Assembly: GCA_002551355.1 (NCBI GenBank)
Contig: NTHE01000037.1
Location: 1-64,000, forward strand
Length of the DNA: 64,000 bases
Direction of reading: 5' to 3'
DNA from: Streptomyces sp. man185
GTDB lineage: Bacteria > Actinomycetota > Actinomycetes > Streptomycetales > Streptomycetaceae
Below are positions 20-11,122 of the stretch, piece after piece. Position 1 is the stretch's first letter. The number at the start of each line of letters is the position of its first letter. The position numbers and the translations under genes were made by a program. The notes beneath the pieces were generated by a model that worked only from the letters and a program-made list of their open reading frames with translations, was not told the origin of the DNA and did not search any database.

Positions 20-195
20 CCGTGGAAACCGGCGCCGGCCGGTTCCGTACGGCGTACCGGGGCGGGGCGACGGCGCCTCCCGCATCCGGCGGCCGGGCCG
101 CCGGACGCGGAGACCGCGGCACGCGCCGAGCGGAGCCGCCGGGGCAAGTGCGCCCCGTCCGCCCGCGTTTCGTTCCGGTCCGTTCTCACACAGGG
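20..195. other. Contig-edge stretch without a supportable gene
   Basis: No reading frame here has recognisable protein features. A leftward promoter (196-224) fires into it, so it may hold the 5' leader or N-terminus of a minus-strand gene that continues off the contig. A minus-strand ATG exists at 85, but too little of the protein is left to judge. Confidence 0.4.
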
Positions 196-224
196 GGTTC
201 GGCGCCGGTGGCCCAAAGGATTGG
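196..224 (-). promoter_or_regulatory. Putative leftward SigK-type promoter
   Basis: Read on the minus strand, CCAATCC (218-224) is followed by 16 bases and CGAACC (196-201). The spacing and -35 are identical to the motif before the lipid operon and before sigK in this window. It points toward the contig edge. The -10 matches less well than the other two copies. Confidence 0.5.
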
Positions 225-288
225 TCCCGGGCTCTCATTCACTCGTTCGGAGCAGATCCGATGATCGACCAATCCTTTCGGCCACCGG
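205..288. repeat. 22-bp inverted repeat, arms 205-226 and 267-288
   Basis: The two arms match as reverse complements at 21 of 22 positions and are separated by 40 bases. Each arm contains CCAATCC in outward orientation, so the repeat is best explained as two divergent copies of the same sigma-factor promoter, with the conserved sequence continuing into the spacer. Confidence 0.8.
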
Positions 289-297
289 CCACGAATA
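269..297 (+). promoter_or_regulatory. SigK-type promoter of the lipid-modification operon
   Basis: CCAATCC (269-275), 16 bases, then CGAATA (292-297). The same motif precedes the sigK-like gene at 8662-8690. It resembles my recollection of the mycobacterial SigK consensus (CCATCC near -35 and a CGAAT-like -10). It would start transcription about 50 bases before the ATG at 357. Confidence 0.65.
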
Positions 298-1631: not shown

Positions 1632-2350
1632 GCGCCCTCTACCCGTGCACCATCACGCACGTACGGAACCGGCCGACCAAGTACGCGTTCCGCCACCGGA
1701 CGTATCTGTGGCTGATCGACCCCGACCGGCCGCCCCGGCTGCCGCGCGCCCTGCGGCCGCTGGCCCGGTTCGACCCCCGCGACCACTTCGGCGGCACCGC
1801 CCCCACCATCCGGGGCGGGCTCGAACGCTTCCTGCGGGCGCGGGATGTGGAACTGGGCGACGGCACCGTCACCATGCTCACCCAGGCCCGGGTGTTCGGG
1901 TACGTCTTCAACCCGATCACCGTCTACTGGTGCCACCGCGCCGACGGCAGTCCCCTCTGCATCGTCGCCGAGGTGCACAACACGTACGGCGGGCGGCACG
2001 GCTACCTTCTGCGCCCCGACGGGAACGACCGAGCCGTGACCGGCAAGGACTTCTACGTCTCGCCGTTCTTCCCCGTGGACGGCGGCTACCGGATGCGGCT
2101 GCCCGAGCCCGGGTCCCGTCTCGACCTGAGCATCCACCTGGAGCGCGACGGGGCCCGCCCCTTCACCGCGACCGTGCGGGGCGGCCGCCGCCCGGCCACC
2201 CCCCGGCAGCTGGTGCGCCTCGCCCTGCGCCACCCTCTCTCCACCCTCCTCGTCTCCGCCGCGATCCGCCTGCACGGCATCCGGCTCTACCTGCGCGGGC
2301 TCCCCGTGCAACCCCGTCCCCCTCAACGCACACAGGAAGGCATGCAGTGA
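1628..2350 (+). CDS. DUF1365 family protein
   Basis: A 240-residue protein matching the DUF1365 family, with the conserved N-terminal pattern (YPCTITHVR, then HRTYLWLIDPDRPP) and the central FGYVFNPITVYWCH and YVSPFFPVDGGY stretches. No biochemical role is established. The family is almost always encoded between an FAD oxidoreductase and a CFA-synthase-like methyltransferase, as here and at mycobacterial Rv0448c, so a role in acyl-chain modification is inferred from context. The GTG start at 1628 overlaps the preceding TGA. A GTG one codon earlier is possible but lies inside the same overlap. Confidence 0.88.
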   Translation: MSALYPCTITHVRNRPTKYAFRHRTYLWLIDPDRPPRLPRALRPLARFDPRDHFGGTAPTIRGGLERFLRARDVELGDGTVTMLTQARVFGYVFNPITVYWCHRADGSPLCIVAEVHNTYGGRHGYLLRPDGNDRAVTGKDFYVSPFFPVDGGYRMRLPEPGSRLDLSIHLERDGARPFTATVRGGRRPATPRQLVRLALRHPLSTLLVSAAIRLHGIRLYLRGLPVQPRPPQRTQEGMQ

Positions 2351-3612
2351 CCGCTCCCACCTCGGCGCTGCCGGCAGAACACACCCCCGGGACCGACCCG
2401 GAACGCTGGCCCGACATCGTCACCCTGCCCCGGGGCTCCCGCGCCCGGACCGCCGTCGCCGAACGCATCGTCCGCAACGCGCTCGGCCGGCTCCCGCTGC
2501 GCGCCCGGCTCGCCGGCACCGACGACATCGGCCTCGGCGGGCCGCTCATGGACATCCGCGACCCCGACGCCTTCTTCCGGCGGATCGGCGCGAGCGGACT
2601 CATCGGCTTCGGCGAGTCCTACATGGCGGGGGAGTGGGACGCGCCCGACCTCGTCGGCGTGCTGACCGTGCTCGCCGACAACGCGGCCGACCTCGTCCCC
2701 CGGTCCCTGCAGCGCCTCCGCGGGATCTGGGCCCTGCGCAGGCCCGCCGCGCAGATGAACACCCCCGAGGGCTCCCGGGACAACATCAGCCACCATTACG
2801 ACCTGTCCAACGAGCTCTTCGCCCTCTTCCTCGACGAGACGCTCTCCTACTCCTCCGCCGTCTTCCGCGGCTTCCCCGCCGAGCAGGACCTGCTTCCCGC
2901 CGCCCAGCACCGCAAGATCGACCGGCTGCTCGACGCCGCCGGGGTCACCGAGGGCACCCGGCTCCTGGAGATCGGCACCGGCTGGGGCGAACTGGCCATC
3001 CGTGCGGCCGCCCGCGGCGCCCGGGTCACCACCGTGACGCTCTCCGCCGAGCAGCGCGAACTGGCCCGGGTCCGCATCCGCGAGGCAGGGTACGAGGACC
3101 GCGTCGAGGTGCGGCTGAGCGACTACCGCCACGTCACCGGCGACTACGACGCCATCGTCAGCGTCGAGATGATCGAGGCGGTCGGCGAGGAGTTCTGGCC
3201 GGTCTACTTCCAGACCCTGGACCGGCTGCTCGCCCCCGGCGGCCGGGTCGCCCTCCAGGCCATCACTATGCCCGACGACCGGCTGCGCGTCAGCCGCTCC
3301 ACGTACACCTGGATCCACAAGTACATCTTCCCCGGCGGACTGCTGCCCTCCACCGAGGCCGTGGAGCGGATCACCACCGAACACACCCGCCTGCGCACCA
3401 CCCAGCGCATCCGCTTCGGCGCGCACTACGCCGAGACGCTCCGGCTGTGGCGGGAGAGGTTCACCGAACGGGCGGCCGAGGTCGACGCCCTCGGCTTCGA
3501 CGCCGTCTTCCGCCGGATGTGGACCTTCTACCTCGCCTACTCCGAGGCGGGCTTCCGCTCCGGCTATCTCGATGTGCAGCAGTTGCTTCTGACCCGCGAG
3601 GAGACCGCGTGA
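2347..3612 (+). CDS. Cyclopropane-fatty-acyl-phospholipid synthase family methyltransferase (copy 1)
   Basis: A 421-residue SAM-dependent methyltransferase. The CFA-synthase signature ISHHYDLSN lies at residues 148-156 and the SAM-binding glycine loop (LEIGTGWGE) at 207-215, followed by the family's SVEMIEAVGEE stretch. Family members add a methylene or methyl group from SAM to double bonds of phospholipid acyl chains. The product here could be a cyclopropane, a 10-methyl-branched or another methylated acyl chain. It occupies the position of mycobacterial Rv0447c (ufaA1). The GTG start overlaps the DUF1365 stop, so translational coupling is likely. A second paralogue follows directly. Confidence 0.9.
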   Translation: MTAPTSALPAEHTPGTDPERWPDIVTLPRGSRARTAVAERIVRNALGRLPLRARLAGTDDIGLGGPLMDIRDPDAFFRRIGASGLIGFGESYMAGEWDAPDLVGVLTVLADNAADLVPRSLQRLRGIWALRRPAAQMNTPEGSRDNISHHYDLSNELFALFLDETLSYSSAVFRGFPAEQDLLPAAQHRKIDRLLDAAGVTEGTRLLEIGTGWGELAIRAAARGARVTTVTLSAEQRELARVRIREAGYEDRVEVRLSDYRHVTGDYDAIVSVEMIEAVGEEFWPVYFQTLDRLLAPGGRVALQAITMPDDRLRVSRSTYTWIHKYIFPGGLLPSTEAVERITTEHTRLRTTQRIRFGAHYAETLRLWRERFTERAAEVDALGFDAVFRRMWTFYLAYSEAGFRSGYLDVQQLLLTREETA

Positions 3613-4961
3613 CCACGACCGCAGCCAAGCCCCCCGCCCGGCGCACCCCGACCGGGGCAGCCCAGCGTGTCGAGCCGCTGATCGAGCGGTTCCTCGGCGG
3701 TGGACTGCCGGTCCGGATACGGATGTGGGACGGCAGCGAGACGGGCCCGCAGGACGCCCCCACCGTCCATGTGCGGACCCGCAGAGCGCTGCGCCGCCTC
3801 CTGTGGGAGCCGGGCGAACTCGGTCTCGCCGAGGCCTACATCACCGGCGACATCGACCTCGACTCCGATCTCGGCGACGGGCTGCGGGCCATGCGCCGCG
3901 CCGTACGCGAACGCGGCCTCACCGCGCCCTCGCCCGCCCTCGCCGACCGGGTCAAGGCGGCCGGCCTGGCCCTGCGCCTCGGTGCGGTCGGCCCCCGGCC
4001 GCCGGTGCCCGCCGCCCGCGCCGGACTGCGCGGAACGCTTCACAGCAAGGCCCGCGACCGGGCGGCGATCAGCCACCACTACGACCTGTCCAACGCCTTC
4101 TACGCCCTGCTCCTCGACGAGACGATGGCGTACTCCTGCGGCTACTGGACGAGCGACGCACCCGGCTACGGCCCGGCCGACGCCCAGCGCGACAAGCTGG
4201 AGCTGATCTGCCGCAAGCTCGGACTGCGGTCCGGCGCACGGCTGCTGGACGTCGGCTGCGGCTGGGGTTCGCTGACCCTGTACGCGGCGGAGCGCCTCGG
4301 CGTCCACGTCACCGCCGTCACCCTCGCCGCCGAACAGGCCGCGTACGTACGGCAGCAGGTCGCGAGCCGTGGACTCGGCGACCTCGTCGAGGTGCTGAAC
4401 ATCGACTACCGGGACATCGCGGAGCGGCCCGAGACCCGGGGCGCGTACGACGCCGTGTCCACCATCGAGATGGGCGAACACGTCGGGGACGCCGAGTACC
4501 CGGCGTTCACCGCGATCCTGCACGACGTGCTCCGGCCCCGGGGCCGGGCCCTGGTCCAGCAGATGTCCCGGGGGACGACCGCCCCCGGCGGCGGCGCGTT
4601 CATCGAGTCCTACATCGCCCCCGACATGCACATGCGGCCGCTCGGCGAGACCGTCGCCCTGCTGGAGGGGTCCGGTCTGGAGGTCCGCGACGTCGAATCA
4701 CTGCGCGAGCACTACGTCCTGACCGTGGAGGCCTGGCGGCGCACCCTGGAGGAGCGCTGGACGGAGTTCGCCGCGATGGTGGGGGAGGAGACCGCGCGGG
4801 TGTGGCGGCTCTATCTCGTCGGCGGCGCGCTCGCGTTCGAGGAACGGCGGATGGGCGTCGACCAGATCCTCTCCGTGCGGCCCGACCCGGTCGGCGCCGC
4901 CGCGATGCCGGCCACCCGGCGCGACTGGTACGCGCCTGCCGCCCCGGAGGAGAGCCGGTGA
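3609..4961 (+). CDS. Cyclopropane-fatty-acyl-phospholipid synthase family methyltransferase (copy 2)
   Basis: A 450-residue paralogue of the preceding gene with the same order of elements: AISHHYDLSN near residue 153, a SAM loop LLDVGCGWGS near 215, and TIEMGEHVGD in place of the SVEMIEAVGEE stretch. It is clearly divergent from copy 1, including an N-terminal extension of about 15 residues, so the two probably differ in substrate or product. Mycobacterial sigK loci carry one methyltransferase at this position, so the tandem pair is a difference from that arrangement. The GTG start at 3609 overlaps the previous stop (GTGA). Confidence 0.9.
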   Translation: MTTTAAKPPARRTPTGAAQRVEPLIERFLGGGLPVRIRMWDGSETGPQDAPTVHVRTRRALRRLLWEPGELGLAEAYITGDIDLDSDLGDGLRAMRRAVRERGLTAPSPALADRVKAAGLALRLGAVGPRPPVPAARAGLRGTLHSKARDRAAISHHYDLSNAFYALLLDETMAYSCGYWTSDAPGYGPADAQRDKLELICRKLGLRSGARLLDVGCGWGSLTLYAAERLGVHVTAVTLAAEQAAYVRQQVASRGLGDLVEVLNIDYRDIAERPETRGAYDAVSTIEMGEHVGDAEYPAFTAILHDVLRPRGRALVQQMSRGTTAPGGGAFIESYIAPDMHMRPLGETVALLEGSGLEVRDVESLREHYVLTVEAWRRTLEERWTEFAAMVGEETARVWRLYLVGGALAFEERRMGVDQILSVRPDPVGAAAMPATRRDWYAPAAPEESR

Positions 4962-5761
4962 GCGGCTTCGCCTGGGCCGCGTTCGCGAGCGGGCTCGCGG
5001 GCGCGGCCGTCGCCGCCCTCGGTGTCATGCTCGTCACCTTCGCCGTCGCCCTCAACAAGGGCGTCCACCGGATCGTCGACATCGCCTGGGGCCTCGGCTT
5101 CGCCGCCGTCGCCCTGGTCTCCTACGGCCTCTCGGCGGGCGCGGGCGACGACGGCCGCAGACTCCTGGTGACCGCGCTGACCGTGATCTGGGGGGTGCGC
5201 CTCGCCGTCCACATCGGACGGCGCGGCCGGGGCCACGGCGAGGACCCGCGCTACGAGAAGATGCTGGCCAAGGCCCCCGGCAACCCCCAGCTGTACGCCC
5301 TGCGCAAGGTGTACCTGCTCCAGGGCGCGCTGGTCTGGCTCGTCTCGCTCCCGGTGCAGGCCGCGCAGTACCTCACCGCGCCGCTCGCCTGGTGGGCCTG
5401 GGCGGGGGCGCTCCTGTGGGCGGTCGGGCTCGCCTTCGAGGCGATCGGCGACGCCCAGCTCGCCCGGTTCAAGGCCGACCCCGCGAACAAGGGGAAGATC
5501 ATGGACCGGGGGCTGTGGTCCTGGACCCGCCATCCGAACTACTTCGGCGACTTCTGCGTCTGGTGGGGACTCTTCCTCTTCGTCTGCCAGGCGCCGGCCG
5601 CCGCTGCCGCCACCGTCGTGGCTCCGCTGGTGATGAGCTTCCTGCTGACCAAGGGCAGCGGCGCGGCCCTGCTGGAGCGTCATATGGCGGACCGGCCCGG
5701 GTTCGCCGAGTACCGGGCCCGGACGAGCGGCTTCTTCCCGCGCCCGCCGCGCCGGGCATGA
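4958..5761 (+). CDS. DUF1295 / steroid 5-alpha-reductase-like membrane protein
   Basis: A 267-residue polytopic membrane protein with about six hydrophobic segments. The C-terminal WSWTRHPNYFGDF motif is characteristic of DUF1295 proteins related to steroid 5-alpha reductases and isoprenylcysteine methyltransferases. Such proteins reduce or methylate membrane-embedded substrates, typically with NADPH or SAM. Its place at the end of the operon, equivalent to mycobacterial Rv0446c, suggests it finishes an acyl-chain modification in the membrane. The GTG start overlaps the preceding stop. A strong hairpin follows the stop codon. Confidence 0.88.
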   Translation: MSGFAWAAFASGLAGAAVAALGVMLVTFAVALNKGVHRIVDIAWGLGFAAVALVSYGLSAGAGDDGRRLLVTALTVIWGVRLAVHIGRRGRGHGEDPRYEKMLAKAPGNPQLYALRKVYLLQGALVWLVSLPVQAAQYLTAPLAWWAWAGALLWAVGLAFEAIGDAQLARFKADPANKGKIMDRGLWSWTRHPNYFGDFCVWWGLFLFVCQAPAAAAATVVAPLVMSFLLTKGSGAALLERHMADRPGFAEYRARTSGFFPRPPRRA

Positions 5762-5819: not shown

Positions 5820-7187
5820 TCAGTCCAGGCCACGCGCGCGTTCGAAGCGGGACCGGGCCTCGGCCAGGTCCACCACCGGGTCCGGGTAGTCGACGCCCGC
5901 CCGGTCCAGGCCCTCCAGCTTCCAGGGCTCGTGGATCGCGGCCCCCTCCACCGCCGCCAGCTCCGGCACCCACCGCCGTACGTAATCGCCCCGGGGGTCG
6001 AAGCGCTTGCCCTGGATCACCGGGTTGAGGATCCGGTTGGGGCGGGTGTCCGTGCCGGTGCCCGCCACCCACTGCCAGTTGAGCTGGTTGTTCGCCATGT
6101 CCCCGTCGACCAGCAGGTCGAGGAAGTGGCGGGCGCCCACCCGCCAGTCCACGTACAACGTCTTGGTGAGGAAGCTCGCGGCCAGCATCCGGCCCCGGTT
6201 GTGCATCCAGCCCTCGTGCGCGAGCTGCCGCATCGCCGCGTCCACCAGCGGATAGCCGGTGTGCCCGGTCTTCCAGGCGTCGATCTCGTCCTCGTCGGAG
6301 CGCCAGCGGTCGTGGCGCGGCCGGTAGTCGGACCAGGAGGCGTCGTGGCGGGCCGCGAGGACCTGGTGGTGGAAGTCGCGCCAGGCCAGCTGCCGGACGA
6401 ACGCCTCGCCGCCGGGTCCGCCCTTCTCCCGTGCTCGGTTGGCCAGTTCGGCGGCGGAGACCGTACCGAAGTGCAGATGCGGGGAGAGCCGGGAGGTGGC
6501 GTCGCCGGCCAGGTCGTCGTGGCCGTCCTCGTAGTCGGCCATGGGGCCGTGCAGCCAGGAGGTCACCAGCTTGCGGCCCGCCTCCTCGCCGCCCCGGGCC
6601 AGGCCGGGGGAGAGATCCTTGATGGTGTCCCGGTCCGGGAGCGGGTCGCCTGACACGTCGTCGGGCACCCGGACCGTGCGGGGAGCGGTCAGTGTGCCCC
6701 GTACTCCCTCCGCCTCCCAACGGCGGAAGTAAGGGGTGAACACCGCGAAGTGGTCCTTGCCACCCGTCGGGACCACCCGTCCCGGAGCGAGCGCGGTGAC
6801 CACCGCGTCATGGATGCGCAGCTCGCAGCCCGTGCCCGTGAGGGCCTCCCGGATCCGCTCCTCTCGCTGTGCCGCGTACCGGCTGACGCCGGCGGCGATG
6901 TGCACGGATTCCGCCCCGGTCTCCCCGACGACCCGTTTCACCTCGCGGGGCGTCTCGCCCTGGCGGACGATCAGCCTGCCGCCCCGGTCACGGAGTCCGG
7001 CGTCCAGGTCCGCCAGGCAGTCCGCGAGGAACGCCAGCCGGTTGGGCGCGTCGAACCCCGCGCGGTGGACGAGGTCGTCCCGGACGAACAACGGGACGAC
7101 CTCGTCCGCGTCCCGCAGGGCGGCACGCAGCACCGGGTTGTCGTGCAGACGCAGATCGGAGGTGAACAGCACCACCGCGACACTCAT
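5820..7187 (-). CDS. phr: Class I deoxyribodipyrimidine photolyase
   Basis: A 455-residue protein with the N-terminal photolyase alpha/beta domain (VVLFTSDLRLHDNPVL) and the C-terminal FAD-binding domain carrying ANNQLNWQWVAGTGTDTRP and NPVIQGKRFDP, hallmarks of class I CPD photolyases. It repairs UV-induced pyrimidine dimers using reduced FAD and visible light. The ATG at 7187 was chosen over an upstream in-frame start at 7259 because it has an AAGGGAG Shine-Dalgarno and begins directly at the conserved beta strand. It lies 102 bases downstream of rskA on the same strand, with no clear terminator between them, so read-through from the sigK promoter is plausible. Confidence 0.92.
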   Translation of the reverse strand: MSVAVVLFTSDLRLHDNPVLRAALRDADEVVPLFVRDDLVHRAGFDAPNRLAFLADCLADLDAGLRDRGGRLIVRQGETPREVKRVVGETGAESVHIAAGVSRYAAQREERIREALTGTGCELRIHDAVVTALAPGRVVPTGGKDHFAVFTPYFRRWEAEGVRGTLTAPRTVRVPDDVSGDPLPDRDTIKDLSPGLARGGEEAGRKLVTSWLHGPMADYEDGHDDLAGDATSRLSPHLHFGTVSAAELANRAREKGGPGGEAFVRQLAWRDFHHQVLAARHDASWSDYRPRHDRWRSDEDEIDAWKTGHTGYPLVDAAMRQLAHEGWMHNRGRMLAASFLTKTLYVDWRVGARHFLDLLVDGDMANNQLNWQWVAGTGTDTRPNRILNPVIQGKRFDPRGDYVRRWVPELAAVEGAAIHEPWKLEGLDRAGVDYPDPVVDLAEARSRFERARGLD

Positions 7188-7236
7188 GGAACACGTGCTC
7201 CCTTGCGGTATCCGTCGACCGGCGGCCGGATGGTTC

Positions 7237-7278
7237 GTGGCCGGTCGGTCAGTGGCCATGGGTCAGTGGCCGGTCGGT
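7237..7278. repeat. Short direct repeats between rskA and phr
   Basis: GTGGCCGGTCGGT occurs at 7237-7249 and again at 7266-7278, with GGTCAGTGGCC repeated between them. Function is unknown. It may be replication slippage or a protein-binding region in the rskA-phr intergenic space. Confidence 0.6.
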
Positions 7279-7289
7279 GAGGTGATCGG

Positions 7290-8042
7290 TCAGGCGGTCG
7301 GGAAGTCCATCAGCGCCACCGGGGACGAGGTCGGTTCGGCGGAGCCCCCGGCGGGCTCGACCGTGATGCCCATGCCGGACGCCCGGTCCACGGGACCGTC
7401 CAGCAGGACCGCGTCGTCGCTCGCCTTCGGGTCCATCAGGCCCGCCGAACGCATCGTGCCCTCGTCGTTGAACCAGATCTGGTAGACCTTGCCGCTCGGC
7501 GGCCGATCCATCCCCGAGGCCAGGAACACCGCGCGGTTCTGGCTCTGCGACACGACGACGGTGCCGTGCGCGCCGCCGGTCAGATCGGCCGAGGAGGTCT
7601 TCGCGTCCGGGGCGGAGAGCACCTGGGCCACCTGCTCGTTCTGCCGCTGCGCCTGGTTCGCCTCCTGCCGCGCGTCCTGTGCCACCTGGTTCTGCCAGAC
7701 CGCGACCCCGCCGAACGCGGCGGCCGCCGCGACGCAGGCGGCGAGCGCGTAGGCGTACCACCGTCCGGTGCGTCCGCCGCCACCGGTCCGCTCTCGTCTG
7801 CCGTGGGCCGGAGTCTCCTGGCGTACGGTCGTGATCTCCCGCAGCACCCTCTCGCGCAGGTCGCGCGGAGGGGCCTCGGCGACGGCGAGGCCGAGCCGGG
7901 CGGCGGTGGCCGACAGCTCCCGCACCTCCTGGGTGCAGGCCTCGCAGTCCTCCAGATGCCGCTCGAACGCCTGCCGTTCGGACTCCGGCAGCGCATGCAG
8001 GGCATAGGCTCCGGTCAGCGTGTGCAGTTCGGCCGTGCTCAT
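7290..8042 (-). CDS. rskA: Anti-sigma-K factor RskA-like
   Basis: A 250-residue membrane anti-sigma factor. The N-terminal cytoplasmic domain carries a zinc-anti-sigma HxxxCxxC pattern (H29, C33, C36). A single transmembrane helix spans about residues 95-116, and the extracytoplasmic part matches the RskA C-terminal domain (GKVYQIWFNDEG, ASGMGITVEPAGGS). Known RskA proteins hold SigK inactive and release it after regulated proteolysis or a redox cue. The ATG overlaps the sigK stop (ATGA), giving coupled synthesis of sigma and anti-sigma factor. Confidence 0.9.
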   Translation of the reverse strand: MSTAELHTLTGAYALHALPESERQAFERHLEDCEACTQEVRELSATAARLGLAVAEAPPRDLRERVLREITTVRQETPAHGRRERTGGGGRTGRWYAYALAACVAAAAAFGGVAVWQNQVAQDARQEANQAQRQNEQVAQVLSAPDAKTSSADLTGGAHGTVVVSQSQNRAVFLASGMDRPPSGKVYQIWFNDEGTMRSAGLMDPKASDDAVLLDGPVDRASGMGITVEPAGGSAEPTSSPVALMDFPTA

Positions 8043-8623
8043 GCGCTCACCCCCAGGCAGTCGCGCAGCCGGATGAGGCCGTCGCGGAGTCGTGTCTTGA
8101 TGGTGCCCAGCGGCACGGAGAGGAGTTCGGAGACCTCACGGTAGGTCAGGCCCCGGTAGTAGGCCAGGGTCACCGACTCCCGTTGCAGCTCGGACAGGGT
8201 GCGCATACAGCGCCGTACCTGTTCTCTCTCCAACCGGGTCTCGACCTGTTCGGACACCTCGTCGAAGGCGGGCGTCCGGTCCAGCAGCGCCGCCTTGTGC
8301 TCCCGGGCCGCGGCGGCCTCGGCCGAGCGGACCCGGTCGACGGCCCGGTGGTGGGCCAGGGTGAGCACCCAGTTCATCGCGCTGCCCCGGGCGGCCTGGA
8401 AACGGGGCGCGGTGCGCCACACCTCCACCAGCACCTCCTGCGCCACCTCCTCCGACTGGGCCGGATCGCGGAGCACGCTGCGCACCAGGCCGAGCACGGG
8501 CCCGCTCACCGCGTCGTACACCGAGGCGAACGCGTCCTGGTCGCCCCGCGCGACCCGCACCAGGAGCTCCTGGAGATCGGGACCCGGCGAGGGCACCCCA
8601 CTGATGTGTACGGCTTCCTTCAC
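8039..8623 (-). CDS. sigK: ECF sigma factor, SigK family
   Basis: A 194-residue ECF sigma factor with region 2 (residues about 25-95, including AQEVLVEVWRTAPRF and the region 2.4 helix ending in HHRAVDRVRS) and region 4 (about 130-190, LSELQRESVTLAYYRGLTYREVSELL, then the LGTIKTRLRDGL helix that contacts the -35). The overlapping rskA-type partner and the lipid operon nearby identify it as SigK-like. It is preceded by a promoter motif identical in design to that of the lipid operon, implying positive autoregulation and control of that operon. The ATG start follows a GGGAGGAAACC Shine-Dalgarno. Confidence 0.9.
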   Translation of the reverse strand: MKEAVHISGVPSPGPDLQELLVRVARGDQDAFASVYDAVSGPVLGLVRSVLRDPAQSEEVAQEVLVEVWRTAPRFQAARGSAMNWVLTLAHHRAVDRVRSAEAAAAREHKAALLDRTPAFDEVSEQVETRLEREQVRRCMRTLSELQRESVTLAYYRGLTYREVSELLSVPLGTIKTRLRDGLIRLRDCLGVSA

Positions 8624-8661: not shown

Positions 8662-8690
8662 GATACGGAGCCGACGGCCGAGCGGATTGG
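8662..8690 (-). promoter_or_regulatory. SigK-type autoregulatory promoter
   Basis: On the minus strand: CCAATCC (8684-8690), a 16-base spacer, then CGTATC (8662-8667). This matches the promoter before the lipid operon at 269-297 in both -35 sequence and spacing. The sigK ATG is about 39 bases downstream. Confidence 0.65.
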
Positions 8691-8738: not shown

Positions 8739-9182
8739 TCAGCCGACGCGTGTTGCGCGCCGAGGCCGCCGCAGCCGGACGGCGCGTACGGCGAGGAAGA
8801 TCAGCAGCCCGAACGGCGACAGCAGGATCGTCAGGACCAGCAACGGCCCCATCAGCAGCGGCGAGAGCCCGAGCTTCCGGCTCTGGAGGTACATCCACTG
8901 CCCGAGCAGGAGATCCCAGGCGATCACCTGCGCCCAGACGGCCCCCGCTCCGCCCGCCAGCGCCGTCAGATCACGGAAGGTGTCGATGTCCGGGCTGCTC
9001 ACCGCCGTCCAGAGCTCGGGGAACACCGGGACGGCCAGGACGACGTAGACGACGAGCACCGGCAGCACGGTCAGCGGTGAGGCGACGACACGTGCGGTGC
9101 CGGACCAGGTGGGAGCGAAGATCATCAGCAGCCAGAACGGGGCGGCCAGATAGAACGTGATCTCGAAGAGTGCGCCGGTCAT
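8739..9182 (-). CDS. ABA4-like family membrane protein
   Basis: A 147-residue polytopic membrane protein matching the ABA4-like (DUF4281) family, with four hydrophobic segments and the motif AWDLLLGQWMYLQSRKLGLSPLLMGPLL split across them. Plant ABA4 is needed for neoxanthin formation. The bacterial members have no proven reaction, so a carotenoid or lipid link is only a possibility. The ATG overlaps the stop of the upstream membrane protein gene (ATGA), so the two are probably co-transcribed and divergent from the MerR regulator. Confidence 0.8.
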   Translation of the reverse strand: MTGALFEITFYLAAPFWLLMIFAPTWSGTARVVASPLTVLPVLVVYVVLAVPVFPELWTAVSSPDIDTFRDLTALAGGAGAVWAQVIAWDLLLGQWMYLQSRKLGLSPLLMGPLLVLTILLSPFGLLIFLAVRAVRLRRPRRATRVG

Positions 9183-10153
9183 GCCACGTGCTCCTTGTCC
9201 GAGGCGGAGGAGGCGTTACGGGCCGGGCGGGCGGGGGCGGCCGGGCGCAGCGCCCTCCAGGTCCCGTACGCCACCGCCGCGAGGATCGCTCCGGCGACGG
9301 TCAGCGTGGCCCCGTCCGGGTGGATCAGCGGCTGGCCCCGCAGCGCCTGCCAGGTGATGAGCGCGACGAGCGCCGCGTGGCCGCCGACGGCGACCCGTAC
9401 CAGGCGCAGCCGCACCCCGGCATCGCGCAGCGGAGCGAAGCGGGGCGCGAGCAGTACCAGCGCGATCAGGAACAGCGGGAGCAACTGGAGCGCGTGCATG
9501 CCCACGAAGTGCGGGGCCCGCAGATCGCCTCCGGTCGTCGACCAGCCGGTCAGCGCCATGGACGGGCCGCCGTCCGGTACGCCCACGGAGTGCGCGCCGA
9601 TCACATCGGCCGTGTCGAGGTTCCCGGCCGCCCGCTGGCTCTCGCTCGGCAGCGCCATCGGGAAGCCGAGAGCGGCGCCGGCCAGGGCGATCAGGAGTCC
9701 GCCCCGGACGGCCAGAGCCGTCGCACGGTCGGTGAGGCGGGTGCGCAGCAGCAGGACGGCGATCACCAGAGTGGCCGCCCACAGAACGACGATGGTCATC
9801 CCCATCGCGTCCCACAGCGCCGAGTCGAACGCGGTCGCGGTGTTGAAGTGGCTGCGTTTTCCCCGGACGACCTGCACGGTGATGATCACCATCTCGGCCA
9901 GACTCGTCAGCACGACGACGTGTCCCGCCCACCGGCCGATCCGCCGCCCGCGCGTGAGGAGCGTCAGCATCCAGGCCAGCGTCAGGCAGTACGCGGTGAA
10001 GGACACGGCGAATTTGAACGGCTTCGCCCAGATCGGCGCGCCCACCAGCATCCGGTCGTCGACCACGAGGCCGACGGCGGAGACGACGGCGAGAGCGGCC
10101 ATCGCGGCGGAGAAGACGACTAACGGGCGATGCCAGGAACGCCAGGACGGCAT
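9179..10153 (-). CDS. Polytopic membrane protein of unknown function
   Basis: A 324-residue protein with about eight hydrophobic segments and no motif I can tie to a known reaction. Conserved-looking features are WAKPFKFAVSF near residue 43, HFNTATAFDSALWDAMG in the middle, and PHFVGMHALQLLPL. Histidines facing membrane segments could bind a cofactor, but that is speculation. It forms a two-gene unit with the ABA4-like gene and shares a divergent regulatory region with a MerR-family regulator, which is the likely controller. Confidence 0.75.
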   Translation of the reverse strand: MPSWRSWHRPLVVFSAAMAALAVVSAVGLVVDDRMLVGAPIWAKPFKFAVSFTAYCLTLAWMLTLLTRGRRIGRWAGHVVVLTSLAEMVIITVQVVRGKRSHFNTATAFDSALWDAMGMTIVVLWAATLVIAVLLLRTRLTDRATALAVRGGLLIALAGAALGFPMALPSESQRAAGNLDTADVIGAHSVGVPDGGPSMALTGWSTTGGDLRAPHFVGMHALQLLPLFLIALVLLAPRFAPLRDAGVRLRLVRVAVGGHAALVALITWQALRGQPLIHPDGATLTVAGAILAAVAYGTWRALRPAAPARPARNASSASDKEHVA

Positions 10154-10282: not shown

Positions 10283-11122
10283 GTGCGCATCGGTGAATTG
10301 AGTCGCAGGTCCGGGGTCCCGGTGCCGACGATCAAGTACTACCTACGTGAAGGGCTCCTGGCCGCAGGGGAGTTGACCAGCCCGAACCAGGCGCACTACG
10401 GACCCGGGCACGAGCGCAGACTGCGCCTGATCCGGGCGCTGCTGGACGTCGGCGGCCTCTCGCTCGCCACCATCGGCGAGGTCCTGGATGCCATGGACGA
10501 TCCCGAGCAGCCGGTGCACAAGGTGCTCGGTGTCGCGGCGGACGGCGTCACGCCGACCGGCGAGGAGATGCCGGGGCCCGAACTGGAGCACGCGCGGGAG
10601 GAGGCGGCCGAACTGGTGCGGCGGCGCGGCTGGGAGGTGGACGAGCGGGGCTCCGCCGCCGAATCGCTGGCGGGGGTGCTGTGCGCGCTGCGCAGGGCCG
10701 GACACGGCGGACTCATCGACCTGCTGGACGTCTACGCGGACGCCGCCGAGCCGGTCGCCCGCGCCGACCTCGACTACGTACAGCGGCGGGTGGCCCGCGA
10801 GGACCTGGTCGAGAGCGTCGTCGTGGGAACCGTCCTCGGCCAGGCGATGTTCGGCGCGCTGCGGAGGCTGGCGCACATCGACGTGTCCTTCCGGCGCTTC
10901 GAGTCGCCGGAGTACCTCTCGGGGCCGCTCGAGCGGGAGGGCGCGGGTGCCACGGAGGATTCCGGTGGCGCGAAGGGGGCCGGCACCACGGAGGGCTCCG
11001 GTGGTGCGCAGGGGTCCGGGGGTGCGGAGGGCTCCGGTGGTGCGCAGGGGTCCGGGGGTGCGGAAGGCTCCGGTGTTGCGGAGGGCCCCGGTGGCATGGA
11101 GGCGGGTGCTGCGGGCGGCTGA
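10283..11122 (+). CDS. MerR family transcriptional regulator with a Gly/Ser/Glu repeat tail
   Basis: A 279-residue protein. The N-terminal winged helix (MRIGELSRRSGVPVPTIKYY, ending near residue 75) is a standard MerR DNA-binding domain. The middle part (about 90-215) looks like a helical effector domain of unknown ligand. No B12-binding motif is seen, so it is not a LitR-type light sensor. The last 60 residues are low-complexity EGSGGA/QGSGGA repeats. It starts at a GTG and is divergent from the two membrane-protein genes, which it probably controls through the nested dyads between them. Confidence 0.88.
   Translation: MRIGELSRRSGVPVPTIKYYLREGLLAAGELTSPNQAHYGPGHERRLRLIRALLDVGGLSLATIGEVLDAMDDPEQPVHKVLGVAADGVTPTGEEMPGPELEHAREEAAELVRRRGWEVDERGSAAESLAGVLCALRRAGHGGLIDLLDVYADAAEPVARADLDYVQRRVAREDLVESVVVGTVLGQAMFGALRRLAHIDVSFRRFESPEYLSGPLEREGAGATEDSGGAKGAGTTEGSGGAQGSGGAEGSGGAQGSGGAEGSGVAEGPGGMEAGAAGG
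10954..11097 (+). repeat. 18-bp tandem repeat inside the MerR gene
   Basis: Eight 18-bp units encode a six-residue repeat (EGSGGA and variants). Units at 10990-11061 alternate between two versions, A-B-A-B, which are identical within each version and so form a 36-bp higher-order repeat. This suggests recent slippage and a length-variable tail. Confidence 0.85.

Follow-up and report, generated by a model that had tools for sequence, protein, structure and literature searches.

We found that the region from 198 to 295, at the left edge of a 64,000-nucleotide stretch of Streptomyces sp. man185 DNA (the window), is very probably a shared control region, in which two divergent promoters of the SigK (ECF19) type surround one developmental operator. 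This reading is drawn from sequence comparison. One of the predicted promoters faces a fatty-acid-modifying operon inside the window, and the other faces a fasciclin lipoprotein gene that lies on a second contig of the same assembly.

Two exact and divergent SigK-type promoters

A motif scan of the window revealed two exact copies of CCAATCC-N16-CGAA in divergent orientation. P-left occupies 198-224 on the minus strand, with its -35 element at 218-224 and its -10 element at 198-201, and faces the fasciclin gene, while P-right occupies 269-295 on the plus strand, with its -35 at 269-275 and its -10 at 292-295, and faces the lipid operon. When two mismatches are tolerated, the motif is found 12 times in the window against 13.3 expected, which is the level of chance, and the case for the pair consequently rests on the exactness of the copies, their mirrored geometry and their conservation. 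The genome scan that had been suggested in an earlier reading of this DNA (the sequence-only reading) bore out the exact form of the motif: with spacers of 15 to 17 bases it occurs at 10 sites, compared with 1 for the reversed control. Exact sites on contigs C1, C13, C14, C104 and C129 were examined and rejected as candidates, two having a spacer of 17, one being intragenic and the others lacking a conserved context.

The lipid operon and its neighbouring sigK-rskA genes

P-right lies ahead of a series of genes on the plus strand, the first of which encodes an FAD-dependent oxidoreductase (357-1631; Amino_oxidase, PF01593) that is a candidate counterpart of UfaD and Rv0449c. It is followed by a DUF1365 protein (1628-2350; PF07103, a domain that UfaO, a furan fatty acid enzyme, also contains), two methyltransferases of the cyclopropane synthase type (2347-3612 and 3609-4961; both CMAS, PF02353) and a DUF1295 membrane protein (4958-5761; PF06966).

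The minus strand encodes an ECF sigma factor, SigK (8039-8623), which scores 295.9 bits against the NCBIfam model NF007228 (SigK; cut-off 226), and an RskA-type anti-sigma factor (7290-8042; PF10099 RskA_C, E 3e-32), whose gene adjoins sigK with a 4-bp overlap. Downstream of rskA, a domain search identified a DNA photolyase (5820-7259, minus strand). SigK has two conserved cysteines, at positions 133 and 183 in the literature, and the protein of the window, as judged by eye, carries a cysteine at each equivalent position (VRRCMRTL and LRDCLGVSA). The motif scan placed a third SigK-type promoter, CCAATCC-N16-CGTA, ahead of sigK itself (8664-8690, minus strand), which probably serves autoregulation. 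SigK-type sites are thus found ahead of sigK and of the target genes alike (8664-8690, 198-224 and 269-295).

Just upstream of sigK and on the same strand are genes for an ABA4-like membrane protein (8739-9182; PF14108) and a second membrane protein (9179-10153), which are possibly part of a light-related neighbourhood. A MerR-type regulator encoded at 10283-11122 has a C-terminal tail made up of consecutive GSGGAEGSGGAQ-like repeats.

Conservation of the divergent pair

The sequence-only reading had made its proposal depend on conservation of the inverted motif in related genomes, and such conservation was observed. In a scan that covered gaps of 8-38 bp, a range outside which the window's own 44-bp gap falls, we found the divergent pair in 21 of 393 Streptomyces genomes and the reversed pattern in 0. 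The pair extends to the wider actinobacteria: among the genomes of 84,980 species, searched with gaps of 22-52 bp, 65 stretches were recovered, all but one of them actinobacterial, and the named matches to the locus are mostly Streptomyces. A match in Neptuniibacter (L110) was discarded as probably due to chance.

The Streptomyces pairs have an oxidoreductase or fasciclin gene on one side and the FAD oxidoreductase gene on the other. In most pairs of the 393-genome scan the left neighbour is a molybdopterin oxidoreductase (PF00174), and in two it is fasciclin directly; in longer loci fasciclin stands behind the oxidoreductase. The start codon of the oxidoreductase is located 8-9 bp past the -10 element, so that its mRNA is probably leaderless. 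A DipZ-type protein (Pfam domains were checked in L105) adjoins the pair in several Microbacterium, a Demequina and an Actinomyces, often with fasciclin on the opposite side and sigK-rskA nearby, a set of genes known from the mycobacterial mpt83-dipZ-mpt70 locus.

Fasciclin genes across the class were also surveyed, with at most one mismatch permitted. Upstream of 14 of the 30 genes, on the gene's own strand, we found a SigK-type site, always with a spacer of 16, compared with 1 (plus strand) and 0 (minus strand) in downstream stretches of equal length.

Two variants of the locus were noted. In Agrococcus (L126 and L150) the pair faces a secreted protein of an uncharacterised type in place of fasciclin. 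In Streptomyces sp. A3M-1-3 (L149) the pair sits between sigK-rskA and oxidoreductase-fasciclin, and a near-perfect BldM-type box lies 4 bp from one -35.

A predicted BldM-type box between the -35 elements

Alignment of the gaps between the divergent -35 elements revealed a 16-bp element, with TCACYCGATCGRRTGA as its best form. Footprinting in S. venezuelae has defined two boxes, TCACcCgnncGgGTGA for BldM (Group I) and TGnnCCGnnCGGGTGA for BldM-WhiI (Group II) (PMC4125116). The window contains a predicted Group II box, TGCTCCGAACGAGTGA, at 239-254 on the minus strand, 14 bp from each -35. It agrees with the published Group II consensus at 11 of 12 specified positions, with one mismatch, and matches as good as this occur four times in the 64 kb, or about 0.002 per 44-bp stretch.

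The 45 distinct Streptomyces gaps, which are related by descent and hence not independent, have a mean best match of 11.2/14 to the Group I box and 10.1/12 to the Group II box, compared with 7.3 and 6.9 in dinucleotide shuffles. Boxes of relatives reach 13/14 (Group I) and 12/12 (Group II), and the pattern had no match in the reversed controls of ten genomes. The genomes found to have a divergent pair do not include the species used for BldM ChIP. BldD, Crp, PhoP and LexA were considered and rejected as owners of the palindrome; the BldM consensus fits its layout and length exactly.

The position of the box follows the length of the gap. In all 45 Streptomyces gaps the best match lies 4 or about 14 bp from each -35, with offsets of 4/4 in 24-bp gaps, of 4/13, 4/14 or 14/4 in 33-34-bp gaps, and of 14-15/14-16 in 44-46-bp gaps. 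The distance between the box and a -35 therefore shifts by about one helical turn, from 4 to 14 bp. Three related genomes from the same taxonomic order have oxidoreductase and sigK as the divergent genes, and there the element lies 14-16 bp from the oxidoreductase -35.

These results lead us to propose, tentatively and with doubt slightly outweighing belief, that one BldM or BldM-WhiI dimer may serve two ECF-sigma promoters and so make the SigK regulon of lipid and surface-protein genes conditional on the sporulation programme. It is rather unlikely, and yet a serious contender, that the SigK promoters act alone, the pair working through SigK-RskA and the sequence between the -35 elements being conserved by another regulator, by shared ancestry or by DNA structure. 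That explanation gains from our finding no BldM-type box adjoining sigK's own promoter at 8664-8690, and from the pairs of Microbacterium, Agrococcus, Nocardioides and others, which keep the layout with no box; in divergent pairs outside Streptomyces box enrichment was not detected (7.5 against a background of 7.0), with one Amycolatopsis reaching 11. It is weakened by the Streptomyces pairs, in which the 16-bp box persists despite drift in the spacers of the promoters and the gap length moves in steps of about 10 bp, as well as by the fit of the box to a footprinted regulator site (PMC4125116) and the absence of the pattern from the ten reversed controls.

The left edge of the contig and the fasciclin gene

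The genome, of 8.07 Mb, is assembled in 169 contigs, and the window lies on contig C101. Bases 1-19, as read directly, are a non-genomic sequence, AGATGTGTATAAGAGACAG, which we take to be the Nextera transposase adapter; further contig ends of the assembly may bear it as well. Bases 20-62 overlap exactly with the last 43 bases of contig C117, which means that C101 and C117 join there. Synteny supports the join: a fasciclin gene is located at the same position, facing the same FAD oxidoreductase, in S. anulatus, S. parvus and other relatives, and in the closest relatives the syntenic protein is 95-98% identical. The appearance of a promoter firing off the contig, as the sequence-only reading had put it, is thus an artefact of the assembly.

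The gene that had been supposed to lie unseen beyond the left edge is present on the minus strand of C117 (84210-84854, the first gene on that contig), and the suspicion that it encodes a fasciclin protein was correct. Its product of 215 aa is an Mpt83/70-type lipoprotein with a FAS1 domain (PF02469, E 5.6e-34) and a lipobox, LTAC, read in the sequence, as befits a secreted lipoprotein. The ATG lies about 274 bp to the left of window base 1 and 462 nt past window base 188. Once the contigs are joined, P-left is in line with the gene, and we infer that P-left drives it. The neighbour had also been put forward as a new member of the SigK regulon; a fasciclin gene under a SigK site was indeed found, whereas mpt83-sigK-rskA is published as a cassette, so that the gene is not a new kind of member.

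Between P-left and the fasciclin gene there is a relic of a leaderless molybdopterin oxidoreductase gene (20-189, minus strand; old GTG at 189-187). In a tblastn search with the protein of an intact relative against the joined region, residues 145-174 matched with 73% identity (E 5e-11) and residues 2-35 with 47% (E 8e-5). Residues from about 175 to 542 are lost and the relic is out of frame with the fasciclin gene, of whose leader of about 460 nt it now forms the first part. Close relatives (S. parvus, S. anulatus and others) have shorter leaders or relics of 58-152 nt. On this evidence, the oxidoreductase is lost in the clade of the window. This genome still encodes an intact relative of it on contig C83, where a separate SigK-type site directly precedes the gene.

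With such a leader carrying a gene relic, fasciclin may also have another promoter. This raises the alternative that P-right is the only promoter that matters, P-left being a leftover since the decay of the oxidoreductase and fasciclin using a different promoter within the leader. We regard this as improbable: for all that the relic and the long leader speak in its favour, the left -35 and -10 elements are still perfect here and in all the sister species listed, even in those whose relic has shrunk to 58-152 nt.

Two further fasciclin genes were noted in this genome. A second divergent pair of SigK-type sites (C96:88987-89127; L065 3988-4128) stands between a fasciclin paralogue, which shares 76% identity with the query, and a degraded fragment of a polyketide synthase. 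The third fasciclin gene (C102:21825-22349; L078 5778-6356) has no recognisable SigK-type site; its neighbours include a MerR-type gene and one resembling DUF1206.

The long inverted repeat

The two promoters fall within an inverted repeat whose arms, 198-226 and 267-295, are 29 nt long, 90% complementary and separated by 40 nt; each arm is a promoter motif with two more bases at its -35 end. When inverted repeats of 22 bp were sought, allowing a single mismatch and loops up to 80 bp, the 64 kb yielded the promoter pair only, and five shuffled windows yielded none. To this extent the near-perfect 22-bp repeat with its two exact divergent copies is as first described in the sequence-only reading, which had overlooked the adapter, the oxidoreductase relic and the BldM-type box; as one entity, the repeat did not hold up.

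Across 45 distinct Streptomyces pairs, the spacers of a pair agree at 8.0 of 16 positions on average, compared with 7.7 of 16 for randomly paired spacers. As spacers are thus no more alike within pairs than between them, the inverted repeat was rejected as a unit. In the window the two spacers agree at 13 of 16 positions, the highest value among the 45 pairs, which 0.45% of cross-pairs attain. Part of the symmetry is explained by conserved bases of the promoters themselves: among the 86 distinct sites of Streptomyces pairs a G four bases ahead of CGAA is invariant, with a strong C on both sides (CnGCnnCGAA). Pair sites of other genera also have this G as their commonest base (39 of 54), and 12 of 13 class-wide fasciclin promoters share it.

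Judging from these comparisons, the long inverted repeat is two promoters with a chance-like spacer match, and what remains of that match is a peculiarity of the window's own pair. That the 22-bp repeat is a functional unit (a palindromic operator, a hairpin or the end of a mobile element) with an incidental likeness to promoters is highly improbable. In its favour, it is the sole repeat of such length in 64 kb. Against it, only the -35, the -10 and a few spacer positions are kept in relatives while their spacers diverge, neither predicted transcript would include the repeat, since both starts are placed downstream of it, and the flanking genes are conserved in order with no sign of insertion.

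A proposed mechanism

From the sequence, gene content, contig join, conservation, box match and spacing observed here, we infer promoter activity, binding by SigK and by BldM-WhiI, a direction of the BldM effect and a signal, which would combine as follows. When RskA lets go of SigK, P-right would transcribe the fatty-acid-modifying operon (FAD oxidoreductase, DUF1365 protein, two CMAS methyltransferases and DUF1295 protein) and P-left the Mpt83-type fasciclin gene on C117, and the third SigK site (8664-8690) would feed back on sigK, rskA and the photolyase gene. A dimer of BldM and WhiI is predicted to bind between both -35 elements at helically phased distances; in other species a BldM-BldM dimer would probably take its place. 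The BldM-type operator would make the output of the lipid operon and of fasciclin depend on development also. If this is true, species use a homodimer or a heterodimer box and developmental timing would differ accordingly.

Relation to known systems

SigK-RskA controls major mycobacterial antigens. Its mycobacterial regulon comprises Rv0449c-Rv0444c and mpt83-dipZ-mpt70 (PMC7509140; PMC10540498). The present locus has in common with it SigK and RskA, fasciclin targets and autoregulation, and its lipid operon resembles the mycobacterial one in a gene pair of unknown function, a ufaA1-type methyltransferase and another gene (PMC7509140; PMC10540498). Unlike in mycobacteria, the lipid operon and fasciclin here share one divergent control region, a photolyase gene lies behind rskA, a BldM-type box lies between the promoters, and a molybdopterin oxidoreductase, not dipZ, is or was in the fasciclin operon.

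It has been published that mpt83-type genes have SigK sites upstream and that such sites extend beyond mycobacteria (PMC7509140), and an mpt83-sigK-rskA cassette has likewise been described in actinobacteria and Yersinia (Veyrier 2008, via PMC7509140). The cassette, as summarised there, is similar to the present locus in having a fasciclin lipoprotein gene under a SigK site and tied to sigK-rskA; a back-to-back layout with a lipid operon and a developmental box is not mentioned in that description.

The locus also resembles the RpoE-ChrR singlet-oxygen regulon (ufaM, ufaD, ufaO) in combining an ECF sigma factor, a membrane-lipid operon and a photolyase, the operon in both cases holding a methyltransferase, a DUF1365 protein and an oxidoreductase (PMC6852236; PMC7380195). 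Rhodobacter makes a furan fatty acid through the joint action of UfaM, UfaD and UfaO, the last of which contains DUF1365 (PMC7380195), and activation of its sigma factor by singlet oxygen requires such enzymes (PMC6852236). The CMAS, Amino_oxidase and DUF1365 proteins of the window stand in one operon, and their likeness to UfaM, UfaD and UfaO is at the level of domains only. RpoE-ChrR differs in kind, being of the ECF11 group with ChrR, whereas here an ECF19 factor is paired with RskA. The fasciclin genes mpk83 and mpk70 of M. kansasii are induced by light (PMC9861118). Because of this light induction, and of the Ufa-like enzymes and the photolyase found here, photo-oxidative or lipid-peroxidation stress is a plausible signal. 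With the SigK regulon tied to a photolyase and to furan-pathway-like enzymes, such a signal could be tested directly in Streptomyces.

The predicted box is of the same 16-bp types as those of the S. venezuelae promoters of Group I (BldM) and Group II (BldM-WhiI) (PMC4125116). If it is real, it shows a stress sigma factor and a regulator of development converging on a single DNA segment, where their sites obey rules of spacing. In the literature searched, which included few subscription papers, we found nothing relevant linking BldM, sigK and fasciclin, which is weak evidence of novelty. We know of no report of a BldM-type box set between two ECF-sigma promoters. Taken together, the comparisons suggest that the locus is new in its form, in which a predicted BldM-type operator is embedded between two divergent SigK promoters, the link between SigK and fasciclin being already known.

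BldM-type palindromes also recur elsewhere, and from genome to genome they precede the same genes, which encode a secreted protein, a regulator of the MarR type and, beside lipB, an HTH regulator. In this genome they are located at C111:118130, C2:106244 and C86:2663, and they occupy similar places in nine other genomes.
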